Source: Terebella lapidaria (taxonomy: Eukaryota; Annelida; Polychaeta; Terebellida; Terebellidae). Taken from it: a DNA stretch of 64,000 nucleotides. The notes beneath the pieces were generated by a model, which was not told where the DNA came from, ran no database searches, and saw nothing but the letters and a program-made list of their open reading frames with translations. Numbering within the stretch: position 1 is the first letter of the stretch; each line of letters starts with the position of its first letter. Positions 17,282 to 50,680 of this stretch are shown piece by piece. The position numbers and the translations under genes are program-made. The stretch is taken from contig OX424556.1 in NCBI GenBank assembly GCA_949152475.1, positions 13,946,664-14,010,663 on the forward strand, read 5' to 3'.

Positions 17282-20200
17282 ATGAAAAACAGCCTGGTGT
17301 TTCTCGTCGTGGCGCTTCTGGTGTATTGTAAACATGTGCATTCGCAGTCGGGTATGAATTTCACCTGGCATACCTATTCAATAAATTTATAGGCTCGGTG
17401 AAATACAGTCAAATATTAGATATTTACAATATGTTCTGAATCAGAGTTTATTCAAATGTATCCAATATCTGCAATAGAAGACTTTCCATGAACAGATGAA
17501 TGGATGATGGTATTGCTATGGTTGCAGTGTTCACCTGGTCCCCAGGGAGAGTTTGGGTCATGGAAGGTGACGACGCCGTGCTGAGCTGGCGCTTTGACTC
17601 CAGTATCAACCTTCCAGATGCCAATATAGATGTGTTGAAGGGAACGGCAGAGGTTATTAACTGGTCACCGGGGTCGTCTTCGAGTCCGACAGTGGACACC
17701 ACGGGTGACGGGCTGCAATACCTCGTCCCGGAGCGCTCCGCCAGAGCCTTCAACTTCACACTGCGGGGCGTCACATCATCAGACCACGGCACCAGGTTTA
17801 AGTGCAAGGTGCTCTACAATGGCAAGTTACACGAGAACAGTGACGCCGTCATCGTGGTCGATGGTGAGAGGATGTTCAGACTTTGTACCGAGCTTGAACG
17901 GTATATTCTGCAAAATATTCACAGCAGAATATTTGGCCACATTTGAGTATTATGCCAATATCCTTGTACAGTTTTGCCCAGGACCCCAGACATACGTACA
18001 TCACCCCAGCTACCGGTGGAGGAGGGTGCCGCCCTGACGCTGACGTGCAGCTCCAGGTCCCAGGTTCCAAGTTACTCGACGGGCCTCGAGTACACGTGGG
18101 TGGCCCCGCCGTGGTACGTCCACAACGACAGCATGCTGTACACGGAGCATGCAAGGCCGAGCGACAACCCAGTCCGTTGCTCGGTGCGTGAGAAAGCCTC
18201 CAAGTCGTCAGCAAGTGCACACACGGATATCTACGTCATCCTCACGCCCACCTCGAGCGCCGGTAACACTTTGGGCTATCTAAATAGACGTAACACATAC
18301 GAACATGAGTGTATACATGTAGTAGCTTCAATGAATATTACACATTTATAGTGTTCTTGTTGTTGTTAAGGTATCGAGACGACATCCCTGGCCAAAACCC
18401 CTACGGTCATCACAACTCTTACGGCCATCACAACTGAAGAGTCTTCCAGTGGTGAGTCCGTGTGCACGTTTTGGTGCCCGTTGTACATGTATTTTGAGAG
18501 AAACGTTAGTGGTATTGTGGTAAATATGGTTCATAAGGCCCCTCTCAGGCCTGTGTGGTTAGGCAAGACTCCAGTGTTCAGCACAATCACACACACAATA
18601 TCCTTCATTGCCATGTCAATCACTTGGCACGAGTGAAATGCAAGACACGCTCACGGCCACACAATCCCGCTACTTATTGTCCAAATATATTAGTATCCTA
18701 AGTCCTGATAATTTAGTCCACTGGTGTCACCTAACACTGTATTCTAGAATGCCAAGATGGCGGGGCCACGTCTGTGTGTCTGGGTTTTTCACCGCGGAAT
18801 GTTGCGGTGTTGTGTCTGATTGGTTGTGAGTGACGTCATATCATGTACTATACACGTGATGTCTGAATGCGGGGTCTGAAAGTCTGAATATCAGTATATC
18901 GATATTCGGCATGTGTGTCCTGTCGGGATCGCGGGAGAGGCTGGCGCTGGCGGCGGTGCAGACAGTGGAAGGCCCACGATAGTGATTGGCTGCGGCTGGT
19001 ACACCTGTAATTCCGTGGCACTGGTGCTGGAGATCCGTATTCCGATGTCATGTGTGTCACGTGCGGCGTCGGCGATGGCCGCGGGTCTGGCGTGGAGGTA
19101 GCGAGCACAGCCACAGGTTCCAACGACATGCGGTGAGGCACATCGGAGATTGGTACTGCAATCTAAGGCACATCGTATTCCTTTGGGATGTTCGTGTGGA
19201 CCACGTGTGACACCATCGATGCGGCGGGAACAGCAGGAGTCGATGGGATGGGCACCGGAGCATATCCTGGGTTGCTCGGGGCAGCTGCGACAGGCGTTCA
19301 TGTCGTGTCAGTGCAATTGTCAACACTGACGGGCAAGTTATCGAATAGGCGCTCGGCAGCACGAATTCTGTTCTGCAATACTGCCTGACTCGTGTATCTA
19401 CTGTTGCGTTCTGGTTTAGCTCGGGCAGATGTGTCACCATGGACGCATTCAAGTTCGCTGGTCAGACATTGACCGAATGAGTCCAGGTCATTGTGCTCGC
19501 TCGTACCCATTTGCAAGCACCAACGCACATAGTCCATTTGGGCATTGTCACAAAGCGATGGTAATGTCTCCTTCGATGGTGTGGCGTTATACGCACGAGC
19601 ATGTGCATTACCAATGTTACTCACTGTCATGAGTTTAAATGGAAAGCAGTAGCGACCTACCGTACGGCGTCGTCGGAGGCAGCGAGTCAGCGACATGTAC
19701 TGGAGCGATTTAGGCACGACTCCAGTGCTCAGCACAATATCCTCTATTGGCACGTCAATCACTTGGCATGAGTAGAATGCAAGACCGCTCATGGCCACGC
19801 AATCGCCGCTATATATATTGTCGAAATATATTAGTATCCCACAACCTGATAATTTAGTCCATTGGTGTCACTTAACAGAGCTTATCCAAAACACGTCCTT
19901 ACTGATCGGAGTCGGATTCTAGAATGCCAAAATGGCGGGGTATTTTCCCGAATGTTACGGTGTTGTGTCTGATCGGTTGTGAGTGATGTCATATCATGTA
20001 CTGTGCATGTGATGTCTGAGTGAAGGCCGTGTGGGTGTGTCAAGTCTGCAAGTGTCCTGATTGGTGGATATATGGTGTGGCTGTACTAAGCAGGATATGA
20101 GTGTTTGCGCCGCGCGCGTAATTCCGAGAAGTGCTCAGCACTTCCAGGAAGGAGAGTTATTTATAGATATTGATGTAAGCGTGTGTGTATGCATGTAAAG

Positions 20201-30345: not shown

Positions 30346-31812
30346 GACGGGATGTAGGAGTCATTGTGTATGCGGTTAGGGTATGAAGGGATGTAAGTGT
30401 CATCGTGTCATGTATGTGGCCGTGTGTGGTGTTTTGAGGACGTACTATGGTCGAAAATATAGCCATATTAGAAGAAGCAAGTGAACATGACATCGGTCTC
30501 TTCTGATAATTCTGATAAAGGGATGACTGCTTGACATCATAATTCCGTGGCAACATGGTTGGATATCTATAGCTGAATCCAACGATCCGCAGTTGAACTC
30601 AAAACATACTGGCTAGAAACTTCTTCTACCTTGACAATAAAATTGCTCATTACTGTGTCAATGAGTTCACAAAGGTTATACTGTGTCCTTCATGAGTCGG
30701 GGCATGGTGTTTCAGGCTGTTAAACACCTCTTACCCTTGGTGAACGTGCCAAAACGAAAACGATGGAAGCCCAATGATAGACAGCGGTTATACCATCAAC
30801 GTTTTTGCATTCGGAAGTCAACATAATGCAATTGTTGCGAGGTTTATTCTTCCATCAACACGCTCCAGACTCAAAAACAGGAATGAGCAGTACAATACCA
30901 TATCGCAAGTTTTATTGTATGGTGGTAACCGCACTATATATATTCTGTTAGTGTAATTTTTCCCCAATGGTGCCATTGCTGCGGAGTTACGGTTGGTCAA
31001 CAGTCAGGATCGATGCATTATCAGCCGAATTCTGGTATGTTTTATTTGAGCTATATCTCTGCAGTTTGGCGACGAATTTCGCTGAAAATTGTTCCGTAGG
31101 TTCTGTACATGACTACAAGACTTGTTCAATGGCCAAATTGAACTCCCAGTCGATAATCATACAGATACCGAACGTTATACACCGCCAATTAAATGTAACT
31201 TACATAGGAAGCAGACAGCGTTTTAGGGTATAGGTTCTTGACTATGGTTAGATCACTTATCATAGAACAATAACATACTGCCTATTCTGGGGTTTGCATT
31301 GACACTTGGTGGTGATTTTTTTTTTTCAAAATAGCATGTTATTCATCATCTGCATGTAAAATACACTTGGCAAAAGAAATTGATTGTCAGTCGCATTAAT
31401 GACGTGTATATCCGTTGGAATTGAAAACTCAACCGCAAAATTTATGAAGAATTCAGCGAAGAGTAGTGTAGAACCAAAATCATAACAACATCACACCTGA
31501 ATACCACGCTCTCGATAGCTGAGCATTGACAGTATTTCCCATACGAATAATCCGCTGCCTAACTGACCATCACCACAAGACATTTTCAGTGAATCGCGAT
31601 AGATATGCGTATTTGCACATCAATTTGACATGAATATCGATGGGATACTTGAAAAAGCAGGGTAGGTAATTTATCATGGATATGTGCACTCGTGGTAGTT
31701 AAGAAACTGCACCATGTCCTGCTTCGTGTACGCAACGTACGTTTGTACTACAACAACAACATTCAACTCTATTTTTACACTAATTTATTAATGAAATCGT
31801 CAATCGCTTATT

Positions 31813-34800
31813 TACGGAAGCGTATTACCGCCATGCAAAAAAAATTTTTTATCTCGCCGTGGCGAGTTACTATCTCGCCGTGGCGAGTTACTATCTCGCC
31901 GTGGCGAGTTAGCATCTCGCCGTGGCGAGTTAGCTATCTTGCCGTGGCGAGTTACTATCTCGCCGTGGCGAGTTAGCTATCTCGCCGTGGCGAGTTACTA
32001 TTTCGCCGTGGCGAGTTACTATCTCGCCGTGGCGAGTTAGCTATCTCGCCGTGGCGAGTTACTATCTTGCCGTGGCGAGTTAGCTATCTCGCCGTGGCGA
32101 GTTACTATCTCGTCGTCGGTGTGTCATTGTATTCCTCAAACGTAGGTCGGCAGATACTATGGATTCACCCCATAGTTGATGATGAAATGATGATGAAATC
32201 AACCCTCTTGACACGCATGGCCTGTATGCGCTCTAGGTATGACAATTTCCATTGAATCGCTGGGATTGTGAACGAGTAGGTTGAGCAATGCTTGGACACG
32301 ACAACTGAAGTTTTCCAGAAATATTGAATATGTTAGATCTATGTGGATGGAGAAAAGAAGTAACTCGACGACAATGTCGAATATCGACTCCCCCTCCCAA
32401 AGTGTGTGTTTGAGATAATTATAGAGTATAATGCGAAATCTCATCCACGAATAACGTTCAAAATGTCTTTCGTTGGTATGAGATACGCCATTCATGCACT
32501 CAAGTTACATGTGTGCCACTAACTCAGTACTGGATCACTAAATCATGAGTATTCTTTCCAGGTCACTGATATTTATGCATCTAATATTAAGTGGCAGCTT
32601 TCACAATGTCGCTCTGATGAAATCAGCGACTTTTCTGCACAGCAAGATACATATTATTCACTCTTAGAAAAACAGGTTCCAGTGGGTTCCCTAACAAACC
32701 TTAACTCGAAACCGTGGAACAGCAACATATGTACAAGTGAACGCAACGTATATCAGGTGGGCCACATCCACCTCACAGGGTGACGACACCGTGCACGGCA
32801 ACCACGGGCTCGAGGTGGTAACCCTCACATCTCGTCCATATCAAGTCCCTAAGGTAGAAAGAGGTAAAGGTGTTATGGGATTGCCATCAGCATCACTTGA
32901 TCGAGGGGAACACATCCCATATATGGAGGCCGCCATGGCTCTACCTCAAACGAACTTACCATGACACTTACCTCAAACGAACAAGTGGAGTCCTGCTTGG
33001 CCAGGTCATAGCAAATTTGGATACACTTTTGAATCCAGGGCGAGTAGGAAGTGGAACGTATGTCTCGGTGGAATATTGACTGATGCGATATGAACAACAG
33101 ACGTTTGCCAGCACAAAGATTTTTTGTTCACTTAAGTTACAAGCGCAAAGCCTACACCGGGCATAGAAGACAGTCTTTTATCAGATTCGAGCCTAAGGAC
33201 GAAGCCAAGGCAGGGATCGTGAAGGCCAACGATGGAGAGAAGGCAAGCTTCACTAGGAAGGAAGGGATGACATGCAAGGAAACCTTGAGGCCATCCTCCA
33301 ACCAGAAAACCTTGGGAAGATCCAACGGATTCTTCCCTGTGATGCCCGGTTCATCTTGTTCTGGGACGGAGCTATGGAGACTTGAATTTGGGCTTCTTAT
33401 CATTGTTTTGTATGGCCGAAGGAATTAGTGACAGCTGTCCTTCATTTGTCTCGGCAGTGTTCCCTGTAGCCTCTGCCATGCCCCCCAGGCTGGATAAGGT
33501 TTTCATTTGTGTCAGCATTGTCCCAAGTAGGCTCTCCCACGTTCCCAGGCTGGATAAGGTCTTCATTGGTCTCAGCAGTGTCCCAAGTCGGACTAATTTG
33601 GACTTATTAACTCCTAGTTTGGACTTATAAGGTTCTTATAAGGTTCATTATACATGAATGGAGTAAAGGGTTTTTGACTCAGAGTATTTTCCCGATTTAT
33701 GCGTATAAATAAATATACACCTTTTTCTTAGCTTTCGAAGGTGCAATATGAAATTGATGTGTTTCAAACAACTTACTTTGAACCATAGGATATTCTTTTG
33801 AAAACAATTGGAAGGTACTCTGAAGAACCTGAAATGTTCTATTTAGAAACTTGAGTACTTTAGAGTGAACAAATATTGAACCACTTGGAGGTTCTTTACC
33901 TAACCTGCAAAGAACCTGAAATAGGTCAATATGGAACTGATTTTTTTTTGGGATGGAAACATATTTGAATGAGGGAGAGTTCTTCATAGAACCTAAACGT
34001 TATTTGATGGTACCTTTAAGTACCCCCAAAAGCTTCAATTCACTGGTTGTGAAAGAACCCGGGTTGAACCTTTACGAAAACTTCATCTCATAATTCCAAA
34101 TTTTCTTTACAAAGAACCTTTGAGGTTCCACGAAAAAGGTTCCACACAAAGAACCTTTCAAAAAGGTTCTAAATGAAACTGTTGAGGTTCCATATATGTA
34201 TAAGCTCAAACAACCGTAAAACGTTCTATCCAGAACCTATTCAGTACACGTTATATTGTACGCTCAATTCCGTCCATTATTGGCCCGAGATGGCCACTTT
34301 ATAAAAAATCTCGCCTGAACGCTGAATGCTTCATGATAGAGTCTGGATTTGTATTAATAGAATTAGGGTTAGGACAGGATAGGTATTTATCCTATCCTTT
34401 CCTAAATTTATCCAATTTAATGTGTGCAATTTCTGATGAACATGGACTTGACTCCAGCAGACCTCGAGTGCTCGAAAAATAGTTATAGCTACACCAAATT
34501 GCGCAGATTGGCCATAAGATACCCTTGACAAGCTTTTATAAGTTCGTATTATGGGTTCATGTGCTAAACATGTAGGAAGTCACAATTATGTGAAGGGCTC
34601 ATCTTTCGGTAACCTTGGAATTGATCTCAGATGACCTTGGGGGCTACGTCACGATGCTATTGAGGACAGAATAGTAACTCGCCACGGCGAGATAGTAACT
34701 CGCCATGGCGAGATAGTAACTCGCCATGGCGAGATAGCTAACTCGCCACGGCAAGATAGTAACTCGCCATGGCGAGATAGTAACTCGCCACGGCAAGATA

Positions 34801-34985
34801 GTAACTCGCCATGGCGAGATAGCTAACTCGCCACGGCAAGATAGTAACTCGCCATGGCAAGATAGCTAACTCGCCACGGCAAGATAGTAACTCGCCATGG
34901 CGAGATAGTAACTCGCCACGGCGAGATAGTAACTCGCCATGGCGAGATAAAAATTTTTTTTGCATGGCGGTAATACGCTCCCGTA
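31813..34985. mobile_element. Foldback-like DNA element, 3.17 kb, with 6-bp target-site duplication
   Basis: Ends are inverted: TACGGAAGCGTATTACCGCC at 31813 and the complement of TACGGGAGCGTATTACCGCC ending at 34985. They are flanked by CTTATT at 31807-31812 and 34986-34991. The uninterrupted sister sequence near 36697 has a single CTTATT, showing a clean insertion with a 6-bp duplication. Inside each end, after an A/T run, is an array of about 13 near-palindromes: TCGCCGTGGCGA on the left (31851-32115) and TCGCCATGGCGA or TCGCCACGGCGA on the right (34676-34949), spaced 21-22 bp. The 2.5-kb core has short frames (33090-33428 among them) but no transposase I recognise. It looks like a non-autonomous Foldback-type element; superfamily unknown. 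Confidence 0.85.
33430..33620. repeat. Imperfect repeats in the core of the Foldback-like element
   Basis: Two to three copies of a block of about 60 bp with CAGGCTGGATAAGGTYTTCATT and GTCAGCATTGTCCCAAGT-type sequence. 33780-34240 is dense in AAGAACCT and its complement AGGTTCTT, giving diffuse short inverted repeats. Confidence 0.6.
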
Positions 34986-35190
34986 CTTATTCGCGTCACC
35001 TTCATAGATATATGCAGAATATATATTCCAAATTTCATGTAAGTTTGGTACGAAACGGCCGAGATATATGGACTAAAATTACACATGGTATTAAATTACC
35101 AGAACGTATGTCACCGTTACGCAATCTTGAGCCAGCAATGACAGTACCCATATTATGTCACAAACTCAAATTATAACACAACTAAGTAGC

Positions 35191-35270
35191 TATGGTGTCC
35201 GATGGCGGCCATCTCGCAACCTCGTAATTTCGTGGCGAGGTTGCGACGCGAAGTTGCGAGGTTGCGACGG
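35191..35270. mobile_element. Truncated left end of the 36897-37431 element
   Basis: Begins TATGGTGTCCGATGGCGGCC like the complete element and stops inside the GCGACGCGAAGTTGCGAG sub-repeats exactly at the tandem-duplication junction, where GACGGGATGTAGG resumes. Confidence 0.85.
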
Positions 35271-36896
35271 GACGGGATGTAGGAGTCATTGTGTATGCGG
35301 TTAGGGTATGAAGGGATGTAAGTGTCATCGTGTCATGTATGTGGCCGTGTGTGGTGTTTTGAGGACGTACTATGGTCGAAAATATAGCCATATTAGAAGA
35401 AGCAAGTGAACATGACAACGGTCTCTTCTGATAATTCTGATAAAGGGATGACTGCTTGACATCATAATTCCGTGGCAACATGGTTGGATATCTATAGCTG
35501 AATCCAACGATCCGCAGTTGAACTCAAAACATACTGGCTAGAAACTTCTTCTACCTTGACAATAAAATTGCTCATTACTGTGTCAATGAGTTCACAAAGG
35601 TTATACTGTGTCCTTCATGAGTCGGGGCATGGTGTTTCAGGCTGTTAAACACCTCTTACCCTTGGTGAACGTGCCAAAACGAAAACGATGGAAGCCCAAT
35701 GATAGACAGCGGTTATACCATCAACGTTTTTGCATTCGGAAGTCAACATAATGCAATTGTTGCAAGGTTTATTCTTCCATCAACACGCTCCAGACTCAAA
35801 CACAGGAATGAGCAGTACAATACCATATCGCAAGTTCTATGGTATGGTGGTAGCCGCACTATATATATTATGTTAGTGTAATTTTTCCCCAATGGTGCCA
35901 TTGTGGCGGAGTTACGGTTGGTCAAAAGTCAGGATCGATGCATTATCAGCCGAATTCTGGTATGTTTTATTTGAGCTATATCTCTGCAGTTTGGCGACGA
36001 ATTTCGCTGAAAATTGTTCCATAGGTTCTGTACATGACTACAAGACTTGTTCAATGGCCAAATTGAACTCCCAGTCGATAATCATACAGATCCCGAACGT
36101 TATACACCGCCAATTAAATGTAACTTACATAGGAAGCAGACAGCGTTTTACGGTATAGGTTCTTGACTATGGTTAGATCACTTATCATAGAACAATAACA
36201 TACTGCCTATTCTGGGGTTTGCGTTGACACTTGGTGGTGATTTTTTTTTTCAAAATACCATGTTATTCATCATCTGCATGTAAAATACACTTGGCAAAAG
36301 AAATTGACTGTCAGTCGCATTAATGACGTGTATATCCGTTGGAATTGAAAACTCAACCGCAAAATTTATGAAGAATTCAGCGACTCTAATAATTTCGAAG
36401 AGTAGTATAGAACCAAAATCATAACAACATCACACCTGAATACAACTGACCATCACCACAAGACATTTTCAGTGAATAGCGATAGATATGCGTATTTGCA
36501 CATCAATTTGACATGAATATCGATGGGATACTTGAAAAAGCAGGGTAGGTAATTTATCATGGATATGTGCACTCGTGGTAGTTAAGAAACTGCACCATGT
36601 CCTGCTTCGTGTACGCAACGTACGTTTGTACGTTACATTTGCTACAACAACATTCAACTCTATTTTTACACTAACTTATTAATGAAATCGTCAATCGCTT
36701 ATTCGCGTCACCTTCATAGATATATGCAGAATATATATTCCAAATTTCATGTAAGTTTGTTACGAAACGGCCGAGATATGGACTAAAATTGCACATGGTA
36801 TTAAATTACCAGAACGTATGTCACCGTTACGCAATCTTGAGCCAGCGATGCAGTACCCATATGTCACAAACTCAAACTACAACACAACTAAGTAGC

Positions 36897-37431
36897 TATG
36901 GTGTCCGATGGCGGCCATCTCGCAACCTCGTAATTTCGTGGCGAGGTTGCGACGCGAAGTTGCGAGGCTGCGACACGAAGTTGCCAGATTGCGATGCGAA
37001 ACAATGAGATTGCGACGCGAAACAGCGAGAGAGTGACGCGACTTTTTGCCTCGTCTTCTCGTTGATTCACGTCGCTACCTCGCAGCCGCGCGTCGCTACT
37101 TCGCAACCGCGCGATCACATTTGATCGGAAATGACGGGAACTTCTGTTCACATTATGAGCTATACCGTCCAAACTACCGAAGATTAACCGTCCCAGAAAC
37201 TTCACGCTCACGCAACCTCGGGCGCGGGAGCGACGCGAAGTTGCGAGGGAGCGACACGAAGTTGCGAGGTAGCGACGCGAAGTTGTGAGATTTTTCGCGT
37301 CGCTACCTCGTTGTTTCGCGTTGCTGTCTCGCTATTTCGCGTCGCAATCTCGCAACATCGTGTCGCAACCTCGCGTCGCTCTCTCGCCACAAAATTAAGA
37401 GGTTGCGAGATGGCCGCCATCGGACACCATA
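36897..37431. mobile_element. Inverted-repeat element with GCGACGCGAAGTTGCGAG sub-repeats
   Basis: Ends are TATGGTGTCCGATGGCGGCC at 36897 and its complement ending at 37431; the inverted region extends roughly 48 bp, to GTGGCGAG. Inside are arrays of GCGACGCGAAGTTGCGAGG and the complement CCTCGCAACCTCGCGTCGC, with a short unique centre near 37105-37205. Flanks AAGTAGC and AATAGC might be a degraded target-site duplication. No coding capacity. Confidence 0.75.
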
Positions 37432-38968
37432 AATAGCAGATATTGAGCAAGAGAAACACACACGTATCATAATTTCGTGTGGAAAGTGTACCTGAAACAC
37501 ATTTTGGCAAGAATAATGGGCAACTCGACAATAATTGCGGGTGAGAATCAGTCTATGAATGGCCAGGCTCCACCCCAGTGGGGTTAAACGTTTTTGTGTT
37601 CACTCAGCCTGAAGTACTGGTTCCAATCTCATATGGCCCAGTGTTGTGATGCTTGTCTCTCTGACTTCTAGGATAAAACCGAGCATTCAGACAGCCCTAG
37701 AGGCAGCGACACAACTCCAGTGTTTTATCCCTGTCAACACTGTCAAGACACATAAGTTAAGCTGTGAACTTTCAAAACACCATGAGTTAAGTATTATCAA
37801 CATTTTTCGCTCACTACGAGATTCAATGTGTTTTGACTATCATTGTGTCTTGTCGCACGACAGTTAAGTACTCTATACGAAAATAAAGGGTTGATCGGGC
37901 CCTGGTGAACCCGATTCGTCACATAATATATTAAGTCGTCTTTAACCTTCAATTTCCCAAATTGTTTTTTTGATGTTGACACAACTTCGATAGTCTAGTG
38001 TATGTTTATGACATTCATCTCATTCATCTTCATCTTTTTTCTTCAATGTATGTCTTTTTAAACTAGATATAGTTGAATAAAGCTAAATTGTTGACACCAA
38101 AGACTTCAATGACAAACTCTACCAGCTGATATAGCCATTGAACCATTGATTGTAATTTACTAAGACCGTTGATTTTGATGGCCACTCTATTATTTGTTGT
38201 TACAAGGAATCCAGTAATACCGGAATTACTGGAATAAGTTATTTTCCAGTAATTGAGTTAACATCGCGGAAATCAGTCGCTTTTTCCACACCGCGGATGA
38301 ACTAAAATGTCCTTGGATTAACACCAGAAGATTTGAATGATGTATCCATGCACTATAGAAGATGAAAGGCATTAATGACAAAGGTCTAACCCTACCAAAT
38401 AACAGAAGGTGTCGCATCTCTAAATATCAGACCAATTACTCAAATCAGAGACAGTCTTTGCTCAAAGGAAAAAAAAACGAACATATGTTTTATTCAAAAC
38501 ATACATGTAATTACATGTGAAATGGAACCAAGATGTACCGTCTCTAATATATCACACCCAGTGTATACTAGTGGCTTTTGTATATATTTATGCATGAACA
38601 AGAGTGTGTGACGTGGACATGATTACCCCATTGAATATTGATAAATAGTATTACGGATAGTTGTATACTAATTCCATCAGGTGTACAGTTGAAACAACTA
38701 CATTTAACACACTGTCTGCCCCTGATGACGCCAGTGTGTCTTTGGATAAACTATTTGGTCGGGCTTTATTTCTATTGCAAAATGTTGTATTTTACGTTTG
38801 TTATTGGCATCATCAGAATCTACTGTATTTGTGGTAATAGATTGATATCTACATACTATTACCATTACGGTATACTGGTATACGGATGTCAGCCTGGAAA
38901 CTGATCACTTGATTCACGGGAAGCTCAACAGTTGATTTCTAATGTATTCTATGCAAAAAAATACTAAA
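37432..38968. other. Intergenic, nothing recognised
   Basis: AT-rich sequence without a supportable gene. A near-palindrome, CCAGTAATACCGGAATTACTGG, lies around 38211-38232. Confidence 0.4.
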
Positions 38969-39456
38969 ACACAAATTGACTCTAACACTAACGTGAAAAT
39001 GAGAAAGTTGTTTTAAATTTATTTCATGCAATCTCAGCATTCAACAAGCATTGAATCAATCAAATACTTTGCTATAAACCGCGAAACACTGGGGGTCATA
39101 TATCTGAGATACTATATGCATTTTTCATAAAGCTTTTAGTCCTGCCAATGTGAGTGTGTCATACATCGTTAATGTTTAACGCTCTATTCTGGTCCTTTTC
39201 GTCCTTGTATTTATAGATTATTCACTCGGTGATAAAATGCTATTGTTTTACCTTATACGTTTGCTTGTTTCATAACGAAGCTGTTGCCCTCGATGGTGCT
39301 TCATCCTTCCAGTGAGCGGACTGGTCATGCAATAATAGGGTCGCAATTATGAACAGCTGTCACCTTGCTATAGACTGACCTTTGGACTAATGAGATTTCG
39401 GTGTAAAAATACATAATCTCATTTCCCACACCGCAGAAACATCAACAACATCTTGA

Positions 39457-39535
39457 CGGGCCCCTTCTGCACAATGGTTGAGGCACAGGACTCAAAGCCT
39501 GGAGGTCCTGAGTTCGAATCCCATTGGTGGCCGGG
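39457..39535 (+). repeat. tRNA-derived SINE-like head
   Basis: About 75 bp with a pol III A-box-like TGCACAATGGTTGAGGC, an anticodon-arm-like CAGG..CCTG hairpin around ACTCAAAG, a variable-arm-like GGAGGTCC and a B box GAGTTCGAATCCC. It reads like a Leu/Ser-type tRNA with decayed acceptor pairing, as in SINE heads. A second copy at 49603-49672 lies in the sister unit and lacks about 24 bp after the B box. A weaker tRNA-like block (GTGTTCAAGTCTCCC) is at 39929-40002 and about 50039-50112. Confidence 0.55.
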
Positions 39536-41186
39536 GGATATATGACCGATCCCCAGGATGTGTGTGTTGATGAGTAAGCTGTGCGGTCAATGTGCATGTT
39601 GACCACTCAGCCATGAGTTGTCCACCTACCAATACGGTCATAAGTTAACCTTTTCATGTAACAGTGTATTGATTAGGAAATTATTTTGGTCAGTCATACT
39701 GTTCGTATACTATGTTTGTCTGTCCGTCAGCTCGCACGATAGCGGGCGCAATTCGTGTCTGAATGACATGAAATTTGCACGAGAGATGCGCATATTACCC
39801 GTGCATAACCCTACTAATCATAGCTGAAGATGTAGATCATAGCTCAAAAACTGTTGTCTTGGCGACCGAAAAACCGTTACATTTATACCGTTACAAAGAA
39901 AACCATAAAGGAATTGTTACATAGGATCAGCCACGTTAGTGCTGTGCATAGAGCTTAGGACATTGGATCCACAGACCTGTGTTCAAGTCTCCCTCTCAAC
40001 CATTTGTTTTTATAGCTTACACGATCATGACCCTGCATTTCATTCTAAACAATATAACACAATTTAATGAATGTACAACCTATTTAACAGCAAATAAATA
40101 ACTGAAAAAAACGGAGGTTTATCCGAGCTGGCTTATGGACTTCTCTATAAGTTCATAGAGAAGCGATAGCTTCATTATCTAGGTCTGGGTTTTTTAAAAA
40201 GCAGAAATATCTGGAGAATTTTGGTGTACTTAGGTTTCAACTCGTATGCACTACATTTGTTTAATGGGGATACGTCTAGGTATTCTTTGAATTAATAGCG
40301 AGCATGGGTTGTTTGTAATGAGATTTATGGTGGTCATTGGTCAGTATTGGACTGCACCCAACTTGTCCTAATTTTCAGATAATTACAACTCGGTTATTCA
40401 GAGGTAACAAACGGGAAATTTAAGCTGATCCATGAAAAATCATTTTCAGGACACTCCATGTTATAACATAATGTAAAACGTGTTTTATATTTTATATTTT
40501 TCAATCTCCAGACGCCAAAATTGATATGCAATATTCTGAATTTTCATTGCCCATAATACACAAATTGACTCTAACACTAACGTGAAAATGAGAAAGTTGT
40601 TTTAAATTTATTTCATGCAATCTCAGCATTCAACAAGCATTGAATCAATCAAATATTTTGCTATAAACCGCTAAACACTGGGGGTCATATATCTGAGATA
40701 CTATATGCATTTTTCATAAAGCTTTCATTTCTGCCAATGTGAGTGTGTCATACATCGTTAATGTTTAACGCTCTATTCTGGTCCTTTTCGTCCTAGTATT
40801 TATAGATTATTCACTCGGTGATAAAATGCTAATCAAATCAAATCAAATTTATTCGGCTATATAACTATGATACACAACACTCATTACAAACAACGAAATA
40901 GCCGGGTCACCACATAGCTTGGTAAAGCTGTCTTCCTGTGGTGCCCTGAAAAAAATAACTAAAGAAATTGAGGTGAGAAAAATAATAATAGAAACAGAAA
41001 GTCTCTAAATGATAAGAAAAATAACTAAAGAAACAGTAACAGAAAAAAAAGACTTATGTGATCTCGATCGGAGGCAGGGAGCGGTAGGCACTGTGTGGTG
41101 TGGACGTAGGACGCAGGCGGCGGCAGCACACGTGGGGCAGGTACAGTCTAAGTAAATGTCGAGGCAAAATGTTCAATATTAAATTA

Positions 41187-44100
41187 TTAAGTGCGACAAT
41201 CTTTACAGTACCGATTTTGACAGAGTATGTTGTTATCATAAAGTGATATAAAATGTGTTTTCAAAAATTCACGGAAGGTCTTTCGGTTTTTGTATTTAAA
41301 GCGTGATAACGATTCATCATAAGTGTTCCATAGCCTAGGGAAAGAATGATTAGGTAATTTAGAGCTAAAAGTTGTTCTTGGTCGCGGAGTGAAATATAAA
41401 TGTGCCTGTCTAGTTAATTTAGATTTTAGAACAATGTTTGTTCTTGCAAAATGTTCAAATGATTTTGGGAGATTGTTGCTTTTATGGTCATACATAAACA
41501 TAAGCACTTGTAGATGATACAGGTCCATCACTTTTAGAATTTCATCGGCTTTAAAGAGAGGGTCAGTGTGTGATCGGTAATGTTTATTGTTGATAATGCG
41601 GATAGCGCGCTTTTGTAATCTAAAAATTTTATCAACATGTATGGAATTCCCCCAGGCTAATAAACCATAATTTATGTGTACTTCAAATATTGTATAATAA
41701 ATTGTTTTTAATACTTGACGTGGAAGTATATGTTTTACTTTATTCATCATGTATAAAGTTTTACTGAGTTTCTTACACACCTGTTCTATATGAGGCTTCC
41801 AGGTCAAGTGATTGTCCAGTAAAACTCCCAAGAAATTTGGAGTGATATTATTGTCGTATTTTTGTATTGCTTTGTTGTTTATATTTAGCGCGATTTCAAA
41901 TTGTCTGGTTTTTGTGGATGGCCCATATATAGCATATTTAGATTTGTCACTATTTAATAATAACTTATTTGCACAAAGCCAATCAAAGATTTTATTCAAT
42001 TCCGAATTAATATGAGTTTCTAATATGGCAGGATGCTTTCCGGATGTAAATATTGTCGTATCGTCTGCAAAACTCAAGATATTTAGGTCAGTACATCGAT
42101 GGAAGTCATTTATATAGATTAAAAACAATATTGGCCCCAAAACAGAGCCTTGTGGCACACCGACATTCAGATGTTTTATCTCCGATTCCTGATTATTTAA
42201 TTCGCAATATTGCCGTCGGTTTTTTAGATAGCTCTCAAACCAGTGATAACAAGTCCCCCTAATCCCATAGCGATGTAATTTATACAACAAAATGTCATGA
42301 TTAACGGTATCAAACGCCTTTGAAAGATCTAAGAATAATCCAAGTGTGAAATTTTTATCCGGCTTATCGTTCTCTTCTGATATGGCAGTTAATAATTGAA
42401 TGATAGGGTGTATTGTAGAGTGCTTGGCGCGAAATCCATACTGATTATTATGAAGTACGTCGGAATATTCAAGAAAGCCTACGAGCCGTTTACACATAAT
42501 CTTTTCTAGAAGTTTCGAAAAGGATGATAAGATACTGATTGGTCTGTAGTTGTTTACATTTTTTCTATCACCAGATTTGAATAAAGGAATTACTTTAGCT
42601 ATTTTAAATTCATCTGGGAATACACCCTGTTCCATGGATAAGTTAAATATGTGGGTCATTGGAATTAATATCGTTTCAATAGTTTGTTTCATTAATTTTG
42701 TGGATATTTCATCAGCGCCAGAAGAAGTTTTAGGTTTGAGTTTTCTTGAAACTTGTAAAATTTCTACCGGATTTGTAGGACTCATAAACATACATCTTGT
42801 ATTATTAAATTTGAAATAATGCTTGTATGAGTTTATTGAATGAGGAATTTTGTCACTAGTAGATTGTCCAACATTGATAAAGTGTTCATTGAAACCATTT
42901 ACTATTTTTTTCATGTCGGTAATATTTTCACCGTTCAATGTTATGGTAGGCGAACTTGATTTATCATTTGACTTTCCTATGATTTCCCACGTTCTTTTCA
43001 TATCATGTTTGTTGTCTTCGAAGATACCTTTATAATACGTTTTCCTATGAGCACGGATGATTTTGTTATATATTAAAACATATTGTTTATAATCAAAGAT
43101 ATTCTTTGCAGTTGGGCGTCTCAGTTTATTTTTGTACAGCTTGATTTTTGTTATCGATGATACTATTAGTCCCTTTGTCATCCAAGGTTCCCTTTTGATA
43201 TATTTTCTTTTCAGTTTTATCTTTTTCAAGGGGAAACATTCGTTAAATTTTCCTTTGTAGATGTTATAGAAATACGAGTATGCCATATTGGGGTCTCTCA
43301 GGTTTAGGATAGGATCGAAATTAGTGTTTGTTAATTCAATGTTAAACGTATTAATATTCTCATTCGAGAAGTTTCTGGCCCATATAACTTTTTCTCTAGG
43401 AATTATTTCATGCTTATTTTTAACTATATGGAATATTCCAAAATGATCGGATACATCAGTAATAATAATCCCAGAATTAGAGTCATGGGTAATATCATTC
43501 GTATAACAATGGTCAATCAAGGTGGCTGATTGGTGTGTCACTCTGGTGGGTTTAGTTATAGTCGGGAGATATCCGAAGGAAAATAAATTATCTACATAAT
43601 CTTTTGTTTTTATGTTTGTTGAATATTTTAGGAGGTCGATATTAAAGTCTCCCATCAAAATAACTTTCTTATTTTCAGTTTCTATCATTCTCATAATATC
43701 ATCTAAAGTGGCAATAAAAATATCTAGATCAGCTTTAGGTGGGGTATTTGGCCTATATATATTACCGATAATCATCGGTTTTGTGTTCTCATTTAATTTT
43801 ATTTCGAGAAAGATCGATTCAAAAACATGAGGAATAAATACACTTATATCGTCACGGACCACAAAGGATATGCTATCTTTAATGAAAAATCCTACGCCTC
43901 CTCGTCCATCGTCCTGATCATCGCGTGAACTGTGAATTAAATCATGATAACCCGGTAAATTAAATGCATTTCTTATTTTAAATACCTCGGACAGGGCAAT
44001 TATGTCAAAACTATTTACATGCTGAATATCCACCATTAGGTTTCTGAATTCGTGCCAGTGGGCATTGAGGCTCTGGCAGTTTAGAGAAAAAAGAGATACA

Positions 44101-44267
44101 ACTGGGGTGTTAAGTTTTGAAAAAAATGATCTGAATTCTAAAGGGTCGTAATATTTACATTCAGTCAGATCTCTCTCATCAAAATCTTCATCATTTATAT
44201 CAAGGGAATTTATCAGATTGTACTGGTCGTCAGTCTGTACCTGCTCCAAGGATACGCTACCCGCCAT
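41187..44267 (-). CDS. LINE ORF2: endonuclease and reverse transcriptase
   Basis: About 1026 residues from the ATG at 44267 (MAGSVSLEQ); the frame stays open 69 bases further upstream but without an ATG. The N-terminal third is an AP-like endonuclease: SLNCQSLNAHWHEF, LSEV, GDFNIDLLK and SDHFGIFH near its end. The middle is the reverse transcriptase: RPISILSSFSKLLEK, FLDLSKAFDTV, GVPQGSVLGPILF and the catalytic LSFADDTTIF. The C-terminal part has FLGVLLDNHLTWK and INYGLLAWGN, usual for Jockey-group LINEs. The protein nicks target DNA and copies the element RNA there. No stops or frameshifts are seen, so it may be functional. On the sense strand a good splice-acceptor-like sequence (ending CTCGATTACAG) lies just upstream of the ATG. 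Confidence 0.97.
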   Translation of the reverse strand: MAGSVSLEQVQTDDQYNLINSLDINDEDFDERDLTECKYYDPLEFRSFFSKLNTPVVSLFSLNCQSLNAHWHEFRNLMVDIQHVNSFDIIALSEVFKIRNAFNLPGYHDLIHSSRDDQDDGRGGVGFFIKDSISFVVRDDISVFIPHVFESIFLEIKLNENTKPMIIGNIYRPNTPPKADLDIFIATLDDIMRMIETENKKVILMGDFNIDLLKYSTNIKTKDYVDNLFSFGYLPTITKPTRVTHQSATLIDHCYTNDITHDSNSGIIITDVSDHFGIFHIVKNKHEIIPREKVIWARNFSNENINTFNIELTNTNFDPILNLRDPNMAYSYFYNIYKGKFNECFPLKKIKLKRKYIKREPWMTKGLIVSSITKIKLYKNKLRRPTAKNIFDYKQYVLIYNKIIRAHRKTYYKGIFEDNKHDMKRTWEIIGKSNDKSSSPTITLNGENITDMKKIVNGFNEHFINVGQSTSDKIPHSINSYKHYFKFNNTRCMFMSPTNPVEILQVSRKLKPKTSSGADEISTKLMKQTIETILIPMTHIFNLSMEQGVFPDEFKIAKVIPLFKSGDRKNVNNYRPISILSSFSKLLEKIMCKRLVGFLEYSDVLHNNQYGFRAKHSTIHPIIQLLTAISEENDKPDKNFTLGLFLDLSKAFDTVNHDILLYKLHRYGIRGTCYHWFESYLKNRRQYCELNNQESEIKHLNVGVPQGSVLGPILFLIYINDFHRCTDLNILSFADDTTIFTSGKHPAILETHINSELNKIFDWLCANKLLLNSDKSKYAIYGPSTKTRQFEIALNINNKAIQKYDNNITPNFLGVLLDNHLTWKPHIEQVCKKLSKTLYMMNKVKHILPRQVLKTIYYTIFEVHINYGLLAWGNSIHVDKIFRLQKRAIRIINNKHYRSHTDPLFKADEILKVMDLYHLQVLMFMYDHKSNNLPKSFEHFARTNIVLKSKLTRQAHLYFTPRPRTTFSSKLPNHSFPRLWNTYDESLSRFKYKNRKTFREFLKTHFISLYDNNILCQNRYCKDCRT

Positions 44268-44336
44268 GACCTGTGGACACACCACTACAGCGAACCGCCA
44301 CACCCAGCCTGTAATCGAGAACACATAGTAAAACAC

Positions 44337-47300
44337 AAATTAAAATCAAGCAGAGTTCACCAACCGGTGACAGTGCAAACAATATACAATCGAACATTTA
44401 TAAATACAAGTGTTTCATGGACCTGATATGTTATAAGTAATAGGTAAACACAATCGGATATAACTCGGATACGTGAGATTCATTTCAACTAGAAGGGATC
44501 GTTTTTAATTGAACGGTTATACATATATTAGAAAAGTATCATTCATGTCCGTTCCGAAGAAAAACAAATTCCAGAGGTGATTTCATACATGAATATTTCC
44601 ATATATTAGAAAAGTATCATGTCCGTTCCGAAGAAAAACAAATTCCAGAGGTGATTTTCGTACATGAATATTTCCACTATTTATGACCAATTTCTGCAAA
44701 GTAAACTGACTATCGTTTCGTGGAAGATGTAATATTACAAACATATCAACCCAGTCTTGTGTTTCCGAATAATGCAAATATTTATTTAAAATAAAATATG
44801 CCGTACTATGCAATACATGTGCACAAATGTGCACCCATACAACTGTTTGATAGTGTTATTTTTGTTTGAATTTCAACAGGGTGAATGTTGCTGTTGTATT
44901 GGTATACTATGACTTACTCCGGACTGGACTACCAGTACTGTGCGGCATAACAGCCAGACTGTGACACGACAGCCACCAGACCGTGACATCACATCCCAAG
45001 TACATCAACACAAGTGAGCTGTACTGCCATTACTGGTGTGCTTAGAGTTCTTTGAGACCATGACTGTACTTTGACCTGTTAGCAACGGCAACTAATACTG
45101 TTGATTCATCGGTCTAATGATTGCACCCGTGTAGGATCAAAATTCATGGGAACTCAGAGGGACACTGGGTCAACAATGTTTAACTTTATCGAAAAAACCC
45201 CGGACTGGACTACCAGTACTGTGCGGCATAACAGCCAGACTGTGACACGACAGCCACCAGACCGTGACATCACACCCCAAGTACATCAACACAAGTGAGC
45301 TGTATTGCCATGAGTTCCTTGCGACCATGATTGTACATTGCCAAGTTAACAACACCAATAATAGTGATTTATCGGTCTAGTAATTGCACCCGTGTGTAAT
45401 CAATATTCATGGGAAATTGGGAGGGGCACTGGGTCAAAAATGTTTGTAAACATACATTGACAGTGACAGTACTGGACTACCAGATATCAATAAACCATTG
45501 AATTCAATATAATATTGGACTACATTATGTTCGTGTCAGCACAGACAATTTATATCAAATGCAATTGAGCACAAATTTGTTAAAGGTTTCATGTAATGAA
45601 CTCACACAGAAATGCAGTTTCATAGATAACGGATCGTAGGTAACAATTTTCTCTGCTTTTTTACAATTGTTTTACAGAACTAAATTTTGTGTGGTATGAT
45701 CAACGGAGAACATCCCAACAAATAGGAATCATGTTTAACATAAATGAATCGTGAGTATTGTAATAATATACACTCAGTGTAGCTCAATATACGTAATATA
45801 GCCCCTCACACACACACACACAGACCCTCACACACACAAACATACACACACACACCCACAACCACACCTATACACACATACATATATACATACATAATAT
45901 ATTCATGTGGTCCACATCATAGCCACAGTCTTCGTAGGGTATATTATCAAGTCAATCATTCATTACAGAGGTACATAATATATAATAGATTCAAATCTTT
46001 ATATCAGAAATCATTTTATAGAGTGCCAATAACCAATGTAGTTTGGTTCAACAGATCAGTGTCGATAAAGCTCACACGATAGAATATGATAACATGCCAT
46101 TCATACATGTTTGATATTCAGCAAGGGAAATTCATAATACATAAATCCTACATATAGGCACACTAACATAATTGTACACATACAGCTACATACAAACACG
46201 AATATATGTGAACTTTTGACATTTTTTTGACATTTTTTGACATTTTTCATACCCAAATATATTCACATACAATTACACATACACGTGATGCGTTTGTTGA
46301 CACATGTCAATTGTTGACATACACCACACACACATCAACACACATACACACATAAATATATGTGAACTTTTGACATATTTTATACCAAATATACCCACAT
46401 ACAATTACACATACACAAGCAGCATCTGTTACCACATGTCATTTGTGGACATACACCACACTCACAAACACACACCTACATACACACACCTTCACACACA
46501 TTCACACATAAATATATGTGAACTTTTGACATATTTTTTTATACCCAAATATATCCACATGGATACACATACACAAGCAGCATTTGTTAACACATGCCAT
46601 TTGTTGACATACACCACACCCACAAACACACACCTACATACACACACCTTCACACACATACATACATAAATATATGTGAACTTTTGACATATTTTTTTTT
46701 CATACCCAAATATATCCACATGGATACACATACACAAGTAGCATTTGTTGACACATGCCATTTGTTGACATACACCACTCTCACAAACACACACCTTCAC
46801 ACACAAACTCACACACACATACATATATATATATATATGTGAACTTTTAACATATTTATTCATACCCACATATGCCCATACACAAGAACACATACACAGG
46901 TTGTTGACATACACCCACCCACACACATACACCCCTACACACAAATATATGTGAACTTTTGATATATTTTTCATACCCAAATATATCGACATACAATTAC
47001 AAATACACAAGCAAGCTTTGTTGAGACATGTCATTTGATGATATACTTTTTTTTGTTTGTACCCCCCCCCCACACACTCACACATACATACATGATTATA
47101 TGTAAACTTTGACATATTTATTCATTCCACCATATACTCACATACAAGTACACATACACATGCAGCCTGTGCTAACCATGTCCTCTTGTTGACCTCCCTC
47201 CATCTCACACCAACACACATACATCAATATATGCGAAATTTTAACTTATTTTTTTATACCCACATATATCCACATACATATATACACATATACAAGCATC

Positions 47301-47912
47301 CTTTGTCTAAATATTTCCTCTTGTTGACATCCCCCCCCCCCCCACACACACACACACACTGACACAACAAACATGTACCTATCTTCAACATGCATATAAC
47401 CAATAGCACATTACATATTTATATATTGAATGTGGTCATTATAATCATTTGTACTATTTTGTAGTAATAACAGCATATACCCCACATGCAACAAAATACT
47501 TGGTTGCTCAAGATTAATAGTACACTTCATGCATAGCAAATAGTATATTGACAAAAAGTGCATTATTTTGCAAGAATAAGCCATTCTGATAAGAATTTTC
47601 CATTTTCTCCCATCACAATCATGTTCAATAAACAGCAAAGTCATAGCAGGTGAATATTTCTTTGAACTGGTCTATTTTTAATAGCTGAGATAAAGATCTT
47701 TAAGTATGGCCACATTCAACCTATTATTAGATTTATTACTCATAGTTAATGAGGTCAATGAGGTGTAAGTTAACATACAAGACGTGGAATGAAACATACA
47801 TAGCTGCACACGTATACACAGAGTTCCAGACACATATACCTATACTAACACACACATGTATTTATATTTCAGGGTTTAATACTCTGTGCACATGCAAATC
47901 AGAATCAAAACT
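44337..47912 (-). other. Long inter-ORF region of the LINE
   Basis: 3.6 kb between ORF1 and ORF2, unusually long for a LINE. It holds a 75-bp direct duplication at 44525-44675 (GTCCGTTCCGAAGAAAAACA), a 280-bp tandem duplication with a third partial copy at 44918-45480 (CTGGACTACCAGTACTGTGC) and a CA-rich array at 45800-47350. No domain recognised. Confidence 0.7.
46190..47350. repeat. CA-rich minisatellite inside the LINE
   Basis: About seven imperfect copies of a unit of roughly 150-175 bp: ATATATGTGAACTTTTGACA, CCCAAATATATCCACAT, ACACAAGCAGCATTTGTT and CCATTTGTTGACATACACCA, then runs of ACACAC. C-runs lie near 47052 and 47332. The open frame of 207 codons on the minus strand here is low-complexity Cys/Val and not a gene. 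Confidence 0.85.
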
Positions 47913-49205
47913 TCACATAGTTGCTGTGTCTATTGCCAGGTTGGCACTTTCTTCAAAGTACTTGAAACGAGCAGGGCCGAGATTTTCTGGACCATCCCAT
48001 CGAGTCACACATATCAACTCATCAACGACGTTCTTTTTACGAAGAATGTCAAGTATCCTTCGGCCACCACCAAACTCGCCATCGTCTTCGAAGTGTTCTT
48101 GGACTCCCTGGTCGGTAGACAGACGATACGCGTAAAATGTGTGAGATGCTCTGGCGACGTTCGGATCACGATAGACAGCATGCAGCGAAGGAACTACATC
48201 CTTCGGTGTTGAGATTGGCACTCTAGAGCCCTGAAAACAGCTTCCACCATGCCACTGAGGAGGAGCACGCGCCACGTCAGCTTCCAAGGACTTGGTCAGG
48301 TAGTCATCTGTTGGGTCCAGTTTGTCGCGTTTTACCTCGTGTTTTGTGTCGTTCACATACAGCGTGCATCCCGACCACGAGACAGTGCATTTGGCTGCCT
48401 TGGCTTCCTTGTAGATAGGCATTAGCTCCCTTTTGCGTTCCGACAGTTCTCGAGGCAGTTGAGGGAAAATGCTCAACCCAGTTTGAGCAAGATTTTTGAC
48501 GTGTTTCAGGATGGTTCCATGATGCACTCTGGGAATATTGGCTACAATTGGACGATCACGACCCTCCTGCTCGATACCCATCCTGTGGGTATTTGTGATT
48601 GTTATTTTAGACACATCTGAAGCAGGCATCTTTAGATTTTGCGTCATGAAGCTTTTCACTGTTTCGGCAACACTTTCAGAAGAACGTTCATTGATGCCAG
48701 TGATGACTAAATTGTTCTTCATGGAACGCTTCTGCACATCTAGTAGTTGATCGTGCATATCCTCAACCAATTTTTCTAGCCGATTGATACGACCCTCATG
48801 TAATTCTTGTATAGCTTTCAGAGTCTTATTCTCCTGTTTTAGTGAATCTAGTTCACTAGCCTGTTTTGTTACTTTACTGTTTATTCCAGATATTTGGTCA
48901 CCCACCTCAGACAGTTTGCCCATAACGTCGTTCCTGAGTACCTCGATTCCTTCCATTAGAGTGAAGGAATCACCCAGCGTCATTGGAGAATTGCGTTGAC
49001 GTTTGCGTGGATTACTCACTGGGTTTTTTTCGAGAAATTTATCCATTAGGGTTTGTGTATCGCGTGAGGGTGTGGAGGTATTCTCATTCATTGGAGTCTG
49101 TGCTTGGAGGTCTAGCGCCGCGAAACTCTGATCGATGTATTCCTCTGCACTGGTGGTCATCACGGCTGTTTGTTTTTCACGGTTGGGTGACTCGACTGAA
49201 GACAT
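47913..49205 (-). CDS. LINE ORF1: coiled coil, RNA-binding body and C-terminal IMPACT-like domain
   Basis: 430 residues from the ATG at 49205. Residues about 1-90 are low-complexity with basic RKRQR; about 90-165 are a heptad-rich coiled coil; about 168-300 are the usual ORF1 RRM-like body (NNLVITGINERSSE, NTHRMGIEQ, RELSERKRELMPIYKEAK). Such proteins form RNA-binding trimers that package the element RNA. Unusually, residues about 322-427 match the IMPACT/YIH1/YigZ (UPF0029) fold: SCFQGSRVPIS, ASHTFYAYRL, EDDGEFGGGRRIL, VTRW and NLGPARFKYFEESA. These align with IMPACT ATHNIYAYRI, EDDGETAAGGRLL, SRWYGG and LGPDRFKHINNCA. In host IMPACT that region accompanies an RWD domain and the protein restrains Gcn2 signalling. 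The function here is unknown. The fused domain is in the same open frame, with no break. Confidence 0.93.
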   Translation of the reverse strand: MSSVESPNREKQTAVMTTSAEEYIDQSFAALDLQAQTPMNENTSTPSRDTQTLMDKFLEKNPVSNPRKRQRNSPMTLGDSFTLMEGIEVLRNDVMGKLSEVGDQISGINSKVTKQASELDSLKQENKTLKAIQELHEGRINRLEKLVEDMHDQLLDVQKRSMKNNLVITGINERSSESVAETVKSFMTQNLKMPASDVSKITITNTHRMGIEQEGRDRPIVANIPRVHHGTILKHVKNLAQTGLSIFPQLPRELSERKRELMPIYKEAKAAKCTVSWSGCTLYVNDTKHEVKRDKLDPTDDYLTKSLEADVARAPPQWHGGSCFQGSRVPISTPKDVVPSLHAVYRDPNVARASHTFYAYRLSTDQGVQEHFEDDGEFGGGRRILDILRKKNVVDELICVTRWDGPENLGPARFKYFEESANLAIDTATM

Positions 49206-49386
49206 GGTTCAACTTCGGATGCACGAATCACAATTTCTCAGTTATAAGTTGACAATTTTATACATGTGAGTTCTGCTATGTATCCTCAGATATTCATTGC
49301 GTAAGATATATCACCGATATGTGTTCAGAAATAGCATGAAAACATTCTGAAACAGGCCCCGAAAACAGAATTCGTGTCTCACGCCA
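49206..49386 (-). other. LINE 5' UTR
   Basis: Sequence between the repeat-defined 5' border and the ORF1 ATG. On the sense strand it starts near GAATTCTGTTTTCGGGGCC. It should carry the internal promoter, but no defined motif is recognised. Confidence 0.6.
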
Positions 49387-50680
49387 TATTGTTTTACCTT
49401 ATACGGTTGCTTGTTTCATAACGAAGCTGTTGCCCTCGGTGGTGCTTCATCCTTCCAGTGAGCGGACTGGTCATGCAATAATAGGGTCGCAATTATGAAC
49501 AGCTGTCACCTTGCTGTAGACTGACCTTTAGACTAATGAGATTTCGGTGTAAAAATACATAATCTCATTTCCCACACCGCAGAAACAACAACAACATCTT
49601 GACGGGCCCCTTCTGCACAATGGTTGAGGCACAGGACTCAAGGCCTGGAGGTCCTGAGTTCGAATCCTCAGGATGTGTGTGTTGATGAGTAAGCTGTGCG
49701 GTCAATGGGCAGGTTGACCACTCAGCCATGAGTAACCTACCTACCAATACGGTCATAAGTTAACCTTTTCATGTAACAGTGTATTGATTAGGAAATTATT
49801 TTGGTCAGTCATACTGTTCGTATACTATGTTTGTCTGTCCGTCAGCTCGCACGATAGCGGGCGCAATTCGTGTCTGAATGACATGAAATTTGCACGAGAG
49901 ATGCGCATATTACCCGTGCATAACCCTACTAATCATAGCTGAAGATGTAGATCATAGCTCAAAAACTGTTGTCTTGGCGACCGAAAAACCGTTACATTTA
50001 TACCGTTACAAAGAAAACCATAAAGGAATTGTTGCATAGGATCAGCCACGTTAGTGCTCTGCATAGAGCTTAGGACATTGAATCCACAGACCTGTGTTCA
50101 AGTCTCCCTCTCAACTATTTTTTTTATAGCTTACACGATCATGACCCTGCATTTCATTCTAAACAATATAACACAATTTAATGAATGTACAACCTATTTA
50201 ACAGCAAATAAATAACTGAAAAAACGGAGGTTTATCCGAGCTGGCTTATGGACTTCTCTATAAGTTCATAGAGAAGCGATAGCTTCATTATCTAGGTCTG
50301 GGTTTTTTTAAAAAGCAGAAATATCTGGAGAATTTTGGTGTACTTAGGTTTCAACTCGTATGCACTACATTTGTTTTAATGGGGATACGTCTAGGTATTC
50401 TTTGAATTAATAGCGAGCATGGGTTGTTTGTAATGAGATTTATGGTGGTCATTGGTCAGTATTGGACTGCACCCAACTTGTCCTAATTTTCAGATAATTA
50501 CAACTCGGTTATTCAGAGGTAACAAACGGGAAATTTAAGCTGATCCATGAAAAATCATTTTCAGGACACTCAATGTTATAACATAATGTAAAACGTGTTT
50601 TATATTTTATGTTTTTCAATCTCCAGACGCCAAAATTGATATGCAATTTTCTGAATTTTCATTGCCCATAATACTTATTT

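Follow-up and report, generated by a model that had tools for sequence, protein, structure and literature searches.

In a 64,000-bp window of the Terebella lapidaria genome (the whole stretch of DNA analysed) we found a LINE whose ORF1 frame ends in a UPF0029/IMPACT-type domain. The reading that we favour, with a probability of about 0.66, is that of a recent, apparently full-length CR1/L2-like LINE whose ORF1 carries a captured IMPACT-related UPF0029 domain, which would dock the RNP to a host partner. The element reads, in order, leader, ORF1, spacer, ORF2 and a 3′ end of short TTTGA repeats. Its parts, and the two copies of the unit into which it is inserted, are:

49387–50674, minus strand: 5′ flank of the filled target unit, 95.8% identical to 39241–40559
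40832–49386, minus strand: the entire insertion of 8,555 bp, its ends placed to within about 2 bases; missing from the adjacent tandem target copy
49206–49386, minus strand: 5′ leader, 181 bp, reaching from the insertion boundary to the ATG of ORF1
47913–49205, minus strand: ORF1, 430 aa, an uninterrupted frame that exceeds the longest run of each of 120 simulations
48723–48968, minus strand: coiled coil, residues 80–161 (single-sequence AlphaFold2 helix, heptad count)
48306–48722, minus strand: body, residues 162–300, putatively RRM/CTD-like by element order only
47934–48245, minus strand: UPF0029/IMPACT-type domain, residues 321–424 (Pfam PF01205; PDB 6bqi, E 8.9e-10; tail model and Foldseek)
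44337–47912, minus strand: spacer of 3,576 bp separating ORF1 from ORF2; it contains a TG-rich minisatellite and a tandem duplication of about 266 bp
41187–44336, minus strand: ORF2, AP-type endonuclease and reverse transcriptase, up to 1049 aa (Pfam, PDB)
40832–41186, minus strand: 3′ UTR, closed by some three short tandem repeats of TTTGA type in place of poly(A)
40554–40831, minus strand: 3′ flank of the filled target unit, 97.5% identical to 38965–39242
38965–40559, minus strand: empty target unit, directly adjoining the filled copy (joined-flank alignment)

The ORF1 frame starts with an ATG that is preceded, two codons upstream, by an in-frame stop. Its 430 codons at 47913–49205 form a single frame, as the original prediction had claimed; the minus strand, which that prediction left unstated, is established here. 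First-order simulations of 64 kb each, 60 per dinucleotide composition, produced open runs of at most 296 codons with the dinucleotide statistics of the ORF itself and 218 codons with those of the window. No second copy of the ORF was found by tblastn in the 64-kb window. Two further open stretches were noted elsewhere in the window: positions 1157–2424 hold a tandem-repeat array with several open frames on both strands, probably a satellite and not a gene, and positions 17500–17946 hold a 148-aa frame that looks by eye like an immunoglobulin-type exon, with no Pfam match at E 0.1.

The C-terminus of the ORF1 protein, proposed from the letters to be IMPACT-like and to share the ORF1 frame, matches the Pfam family UPF0029 (PF01205) at residues 321–424 with 64.6 bits (E 9.4e-18), far above the gathering score of 27 and over nearly the full length of the domain (profile positions 2–106 of 107). 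The tail alone scores 68 bits. Searched against the PDB by sequence, the whole ORF1 protein has its best match in the IMPACT homologue 6bqi (E 8.9e-10), which is also the only match of the tail alone up to E 10 (E 3.1e-10). The bacterial family members YigZ and TTHA1053 were reached by sequence only with a profile built from the tail and 35 bacterial rows, and the score of ORF1 against the YigZ equivalog TIGR00257 of NCBIfam is 25.5 bits, below the cut-off of 167.95. Among solved structures, its sequence thus places the tail closer to eukaryotic IMPACT than to YigZ, and a capture from a host IMPACT is likely.

The fold of the tail points to the same family. For the alignment, 80 bacterial loci were kept from at least 216 relatives; 79 gave an ORF, and 35 of these aligned with the tail. 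The resulting model has a mean pLDDT of 89.9 and a pTM of 0.84. Its three best Foldseek matches in the PDB are all members of the family: 6bqi (Yih1) at E 2.6e-9, 2cve (TTHA1053) at 1.0e-7 and 1vi7 (YigZ) at 3.6e-6, with rmsd values of 3.3–5.1 and TM-scores by query length of 0.65–0.74. These are the only matches below E 0.001, and the next follows at 0.038. The bacterial alignment helps the model to fold, so the fold match is not independent of the sequence match. A fold search with the full-length single-sequence model also ranked 6bqi first, at E 0.014, with nothing below E 0.001; among viral structures the tail model found nothing below E 0.001. The proposal of a UPF0029/IMPACT-type domain in one frame with ORF1 is thus borne out by Pfam, by the PDB sequence match and by the fold.

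The tail is 26–34% identical to the 35 bacterial rows. Of the 37 columns in which these rows are conserved to 95% or more, it retains 20, including the DDGE and TRW.G..LG loops, and differs at the other 17, including the second G of W.GG. With IMPACT/Yih1 (6bqi), its best PDB match both by sequence and by fold, it shares the C-terminal placement of UPF0029 and, in the alignment, the motifs A(Y/W)R and GPxRFK (LGPARFK in ORF1, IGPDRFK in 6bqi). It differs from IMPACT/Yih1 in having P for the second G of W.GG, in being joined to a coiled-coil ORF1 body, and in belonging to a protein with no RWD match. The YigZ family (1vi7, 2cve) and the short alphaproteobacterial UPF0029 proteins have the fold in common with the tail, but are bacterial and lack the ORF1 fusion.

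The remainder of the ORF1 protein was described beforehand as a typical ORF1 coiled coil followed by an RRM-like body, and the first half of this description stands. Residues 80–161 form one helix, the best-scored part of an otherwise poor single-sequence AlphaFold2 model of the whole protein (mean pLDDT 47.6): block means of pLDDT are 72–88 at residues 91–150 and 54–65 at the ends of the helix. In the best of seven heptad registers, 71% of the a/d positions are L, I, V, M or F. Pfam matches of ORF1 to Lebercilin, Cep57 and similar families lie below their cut-offs and were rejected as coiled-coil noise. The RRM-like body did not find support in a profile or a confident fold. In residues 162–300 the single-sequence model shows, with low confidence (pLDDT mostly below 50), what would be the first elements of a beta-alpha-beta order. 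This region matches no Pfam family up to E 10, Transposase_22 (PF02994) included, and its one PDB match up to E 10 is an antibody chain at E 1.5 and not an ORF1p. By eye, we take the body to resemble L1-type ORF1 proteins. The protein has the coiled coil of a type II (L1-type) ORF1 but lacks a Transposase_22/L1 ORF1p sequence match, and is not classed as a member of this type.

The second open frame of the element encodes the enzymes of a LINE. ORF2 matches RVT_1 (E 2.9e-38) and Exo_endo_phos (E 8.7e-13) in Pfam, so that a single ORF combines an endonuclease with a reverse transcriptase; in the PDB, LINE-1 ORF2p is its second match (E 2e-18), behind another RNA-directed DNA polymerase. Both ORF1 and ORF2 are open. 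RNase H has no Pfam match in the element, and the CR1/L2-like label is our presumption from this, the layout and the short-repeat tail. Inside the spacer, the TG-rich minisatellite occupies 46188–47374 with a period of 132–161 bp.

Comparison of the window with itself revealed that one target unit occurs twice in tandem and that its first copy is interrupted. The joined flanks of the filled copy align with the empty unit over 1599 columns, 37 of them gapped, and 1535 of the 1562 gap-free columns are identical (98.3%). The alignment contains one 31-base gap, away from the junction. Exactly two extra bases are present at the insertion junction, which we regard as weak evidence of a target duplication; any such duplication is at most very short. 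The 5′ boundary of the segment lies 181 bp before ORF1, and its 3′ boundary coincides with the 3′ tail of the LINE. With these boundaries, one just before ORF1 and the other at the TTTGA-type tail, the 8,555-bp segment has the layout of a full-length LINE and is a discrete insertion with a 3′ tail. The placement of the frame as a LINE ORF1 is therefore supported by the filled and empty sites and by the EN-RT ORF in the same segment, and not by a profile of the ORF1 body. The distance and the GC contrast between ORF1 and the EN-RT ORF had raised the reading that they belong to unrelated elements, which the empty site speaks against.

The interior of the segment bears on the chief rival explanation: that the segment is composite, with an ORF1–UPF0029 gene (from another LINE, an ORF1-only element or a host gene) upstream of a LINE without such an ORF1. 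Spacers of 3,576 bp are unusually long for a LINE, and ORF1 has a GC content of 46.6%, against 35.3% in the spacer and 33.4% in ORF2; it is this length and this contrast that make a composite segment possible. The window contains no second EN-RT copy, and downstream of ORF1 the spacer has repeat-like open frames only, which speaks for a composite origin. The parts nevertheless have the order and strand that a LINE would have, the outer boundaries agree with a single insertion of 8,555 bp, and the spacer holds, as inverted repeats, only three short imperfect pairs. We consider a composite origin unlikely.

A second filled and empty tandem pair lies in the same window at 30346–36974. Here the unit is interrupted by about 3.2 kb (31813–34985) with inverted terminal repeats of about 300 bp that are 93% alike, and its uninterrupted copy is found at 35271–36974 (identical in 1656 of 1681 gap-free columns, with 92 columns gapped). 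The junction carries 6 extra bases. This interruption looks like an insertion of the DNA-transposon type and overlaps no ORF longer than 112 aa. The presence of two filled and empty pairs, about 98% identical, within 64 kb (38965–50674 and 30346–36974) suggests that the assembly may have set two alleles one after the other. The LINE copy would in that case be polymorphic and young, which fits its two open ORFs.

The same observations could be turned against the insertion itself. A deletion of 8.5 kb at a microhomology of 2 bases might have produced the empty unit, or the tandem might be an assembly artefact; in either case the boundaries would reveal little about the element. The junction is marked by two bases only, and the second pair makes an assembly artefact plausible. 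Yet two alleles misplaced in tandem would still display the presence and absence of exactly this segment, and at one end it stops with a LINE 3′ tail, which is what an insertion, unlike a random deletion, would be expected to leave. This explanation appears improbable. The empty site also weighs on the idea of a host gene domesticated from a LINE ORF1, in which the domain would have been retained because it serves the host, for instance in retroelement restraint or translation control. The intact frame is consistent with domestication, and L1TD1 offers, in principle, a precedent of a domesticated ORF1; but the ORF lies in a segment missing from the adjacent target copy, so a gene long fixed at this site is unlikely, and we hold domestication to be quite improbable.

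Searches for relatives covered collections of viral contigs, phages and plasmids. The viral contigs gave no loci with the whole protein, the tail, the body, the tail alignment or ORF2; ORF1 had no hits in phages, and its DNA no match in plasmids. The tail retrieved 18 plasmid records, all at E 0.3 or worse, and the two inspected are annotated as a YigZ family protein and a hypothetical one. The best PHROGs match of ORF1 (E 0.013) falls in the coil. As none of these is a collection of eukaryotes, the misses have no bearing on how frequent the fusion is among them. Matches of ORF2 in phages (5) and plasmids (13) were rejected as relatives, with coverage of 25% or less and identity of about 25–31%; those with informative names are group II intron reverse transcriptases. 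Among predicted invertebrate proteins, we presume, similar ORF1-like proteins with this tail are present.

The combination of a LINE ORF1 with a UPF0029 module is one that we did not find described. A table of ORF1 modules from 448 elements of the Jockey superfamily lists PHD, RRM, CCHC, Tnp22, coiled-coil, esterase and zipper/zinc-finger modules, of which PHD, RRM, CCHC, Tnp22 and esterase are reported to be shuffled among ORF1s (PMC4120745). UPF0029 is absent from that table, and neither UPF0029 nor IMPACT occurs in the main text of the article; this agrees with the original prediction, which had set an IMPACT-like module apart from the ORF1 modules known in Jockey elements. Like the LINE ORF1 types I–V of that superfamily, the present ORF1 contains a coiled coil and precedes an EN-RT ORF2, and unlike them it bears a UPF0029 module and has a body with no Transposase_22 match (PMC4120745). 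An acquired extra domain is also found in helicase-bearing TRAS LINEs, whose helicase, in contrast, resides in ORF2 and derives from an RNA virus (PMC5563155). Open-licence PMC articles yielded no literature linking UPF0029, YigZ or IMPACT to a LINE ORF1.

As to function, the original prediction suggested that a captured IMPACT-type domain could interfere with Gcn1–Gcn2 signalling. This suggestion is not sustained. Gcn1 binding and Gcn2 inhibition are attributed to the N-terminal RWD domain of Yih1/IMPACT (PMC4503747, PMC7140605): overexpressed alone, the RWD domain inhibits the starvation response (PMC7140605), and substitutions in its helix H3 reduce Gcn1 binding (PMC4503747). No RWD family is among the 12 Pfam matches of the ORF1 protein up to E 1. 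That the tail acts as in IMPACT/Yih1, binding Gcn1 and dampening Gcn2 so that translation continues during retrotransposition, is very improbable, since, for all its homology to the C-terminal domain of IMPACT, it comes without the domain to which competition for Gcn1 is attributed (PMC7140605, PMC4503747).

We prefer, on weak foundations, to regard the tail as a putative docking module in the LINE RNP. The function and binding partners of the ancient domain are called elusive in PMC4503747, where the invariant features of Yih1 and YigZ are reported to cluster on one side of the domain. That article also mentions that a part of Yih1 which suffices to bind ribosomes has been mapped; as the consulted text does not state that the ancient domain binds ribosomes by itself, the case for docking is weak.

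The preferred reading of a LINE with a captured UPF0029 domain would combine these elements as follows. The ORF1 protein would begin with an N-terminus of poor structure, followed by a long coiled coil, a body of presumed RNA-binding type and the captured domain. The coiled coil would oligomerise the protein and the body would coat the LINE RNA, while each subunit would display one UPF0029 domain. The conserved loop face of this domain (DDGE, TRW.G..LG) may then dock the RNP to a conserved partner in the host, which would most likely be ribosome-associated or RNA. Such docking could hold the RNP near its translating template.

We put forward tentatively that a LINE lineage has taken the C-terminal domain of a host IMPACT as a standing ORF1 module, which docks the RNP to ribosomes or to another conserved partner. 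If this is true, the element would be a natural probe of what UPF0029 binds across kingdoms. In LINEs it is the ORF1 protein whose structure varies, and the modules that it gains hint at its function. The presence of UPF0029 in ORF1 would tie LINE RNPs to translation-related host machinery, and would provide a new handle on the domain.
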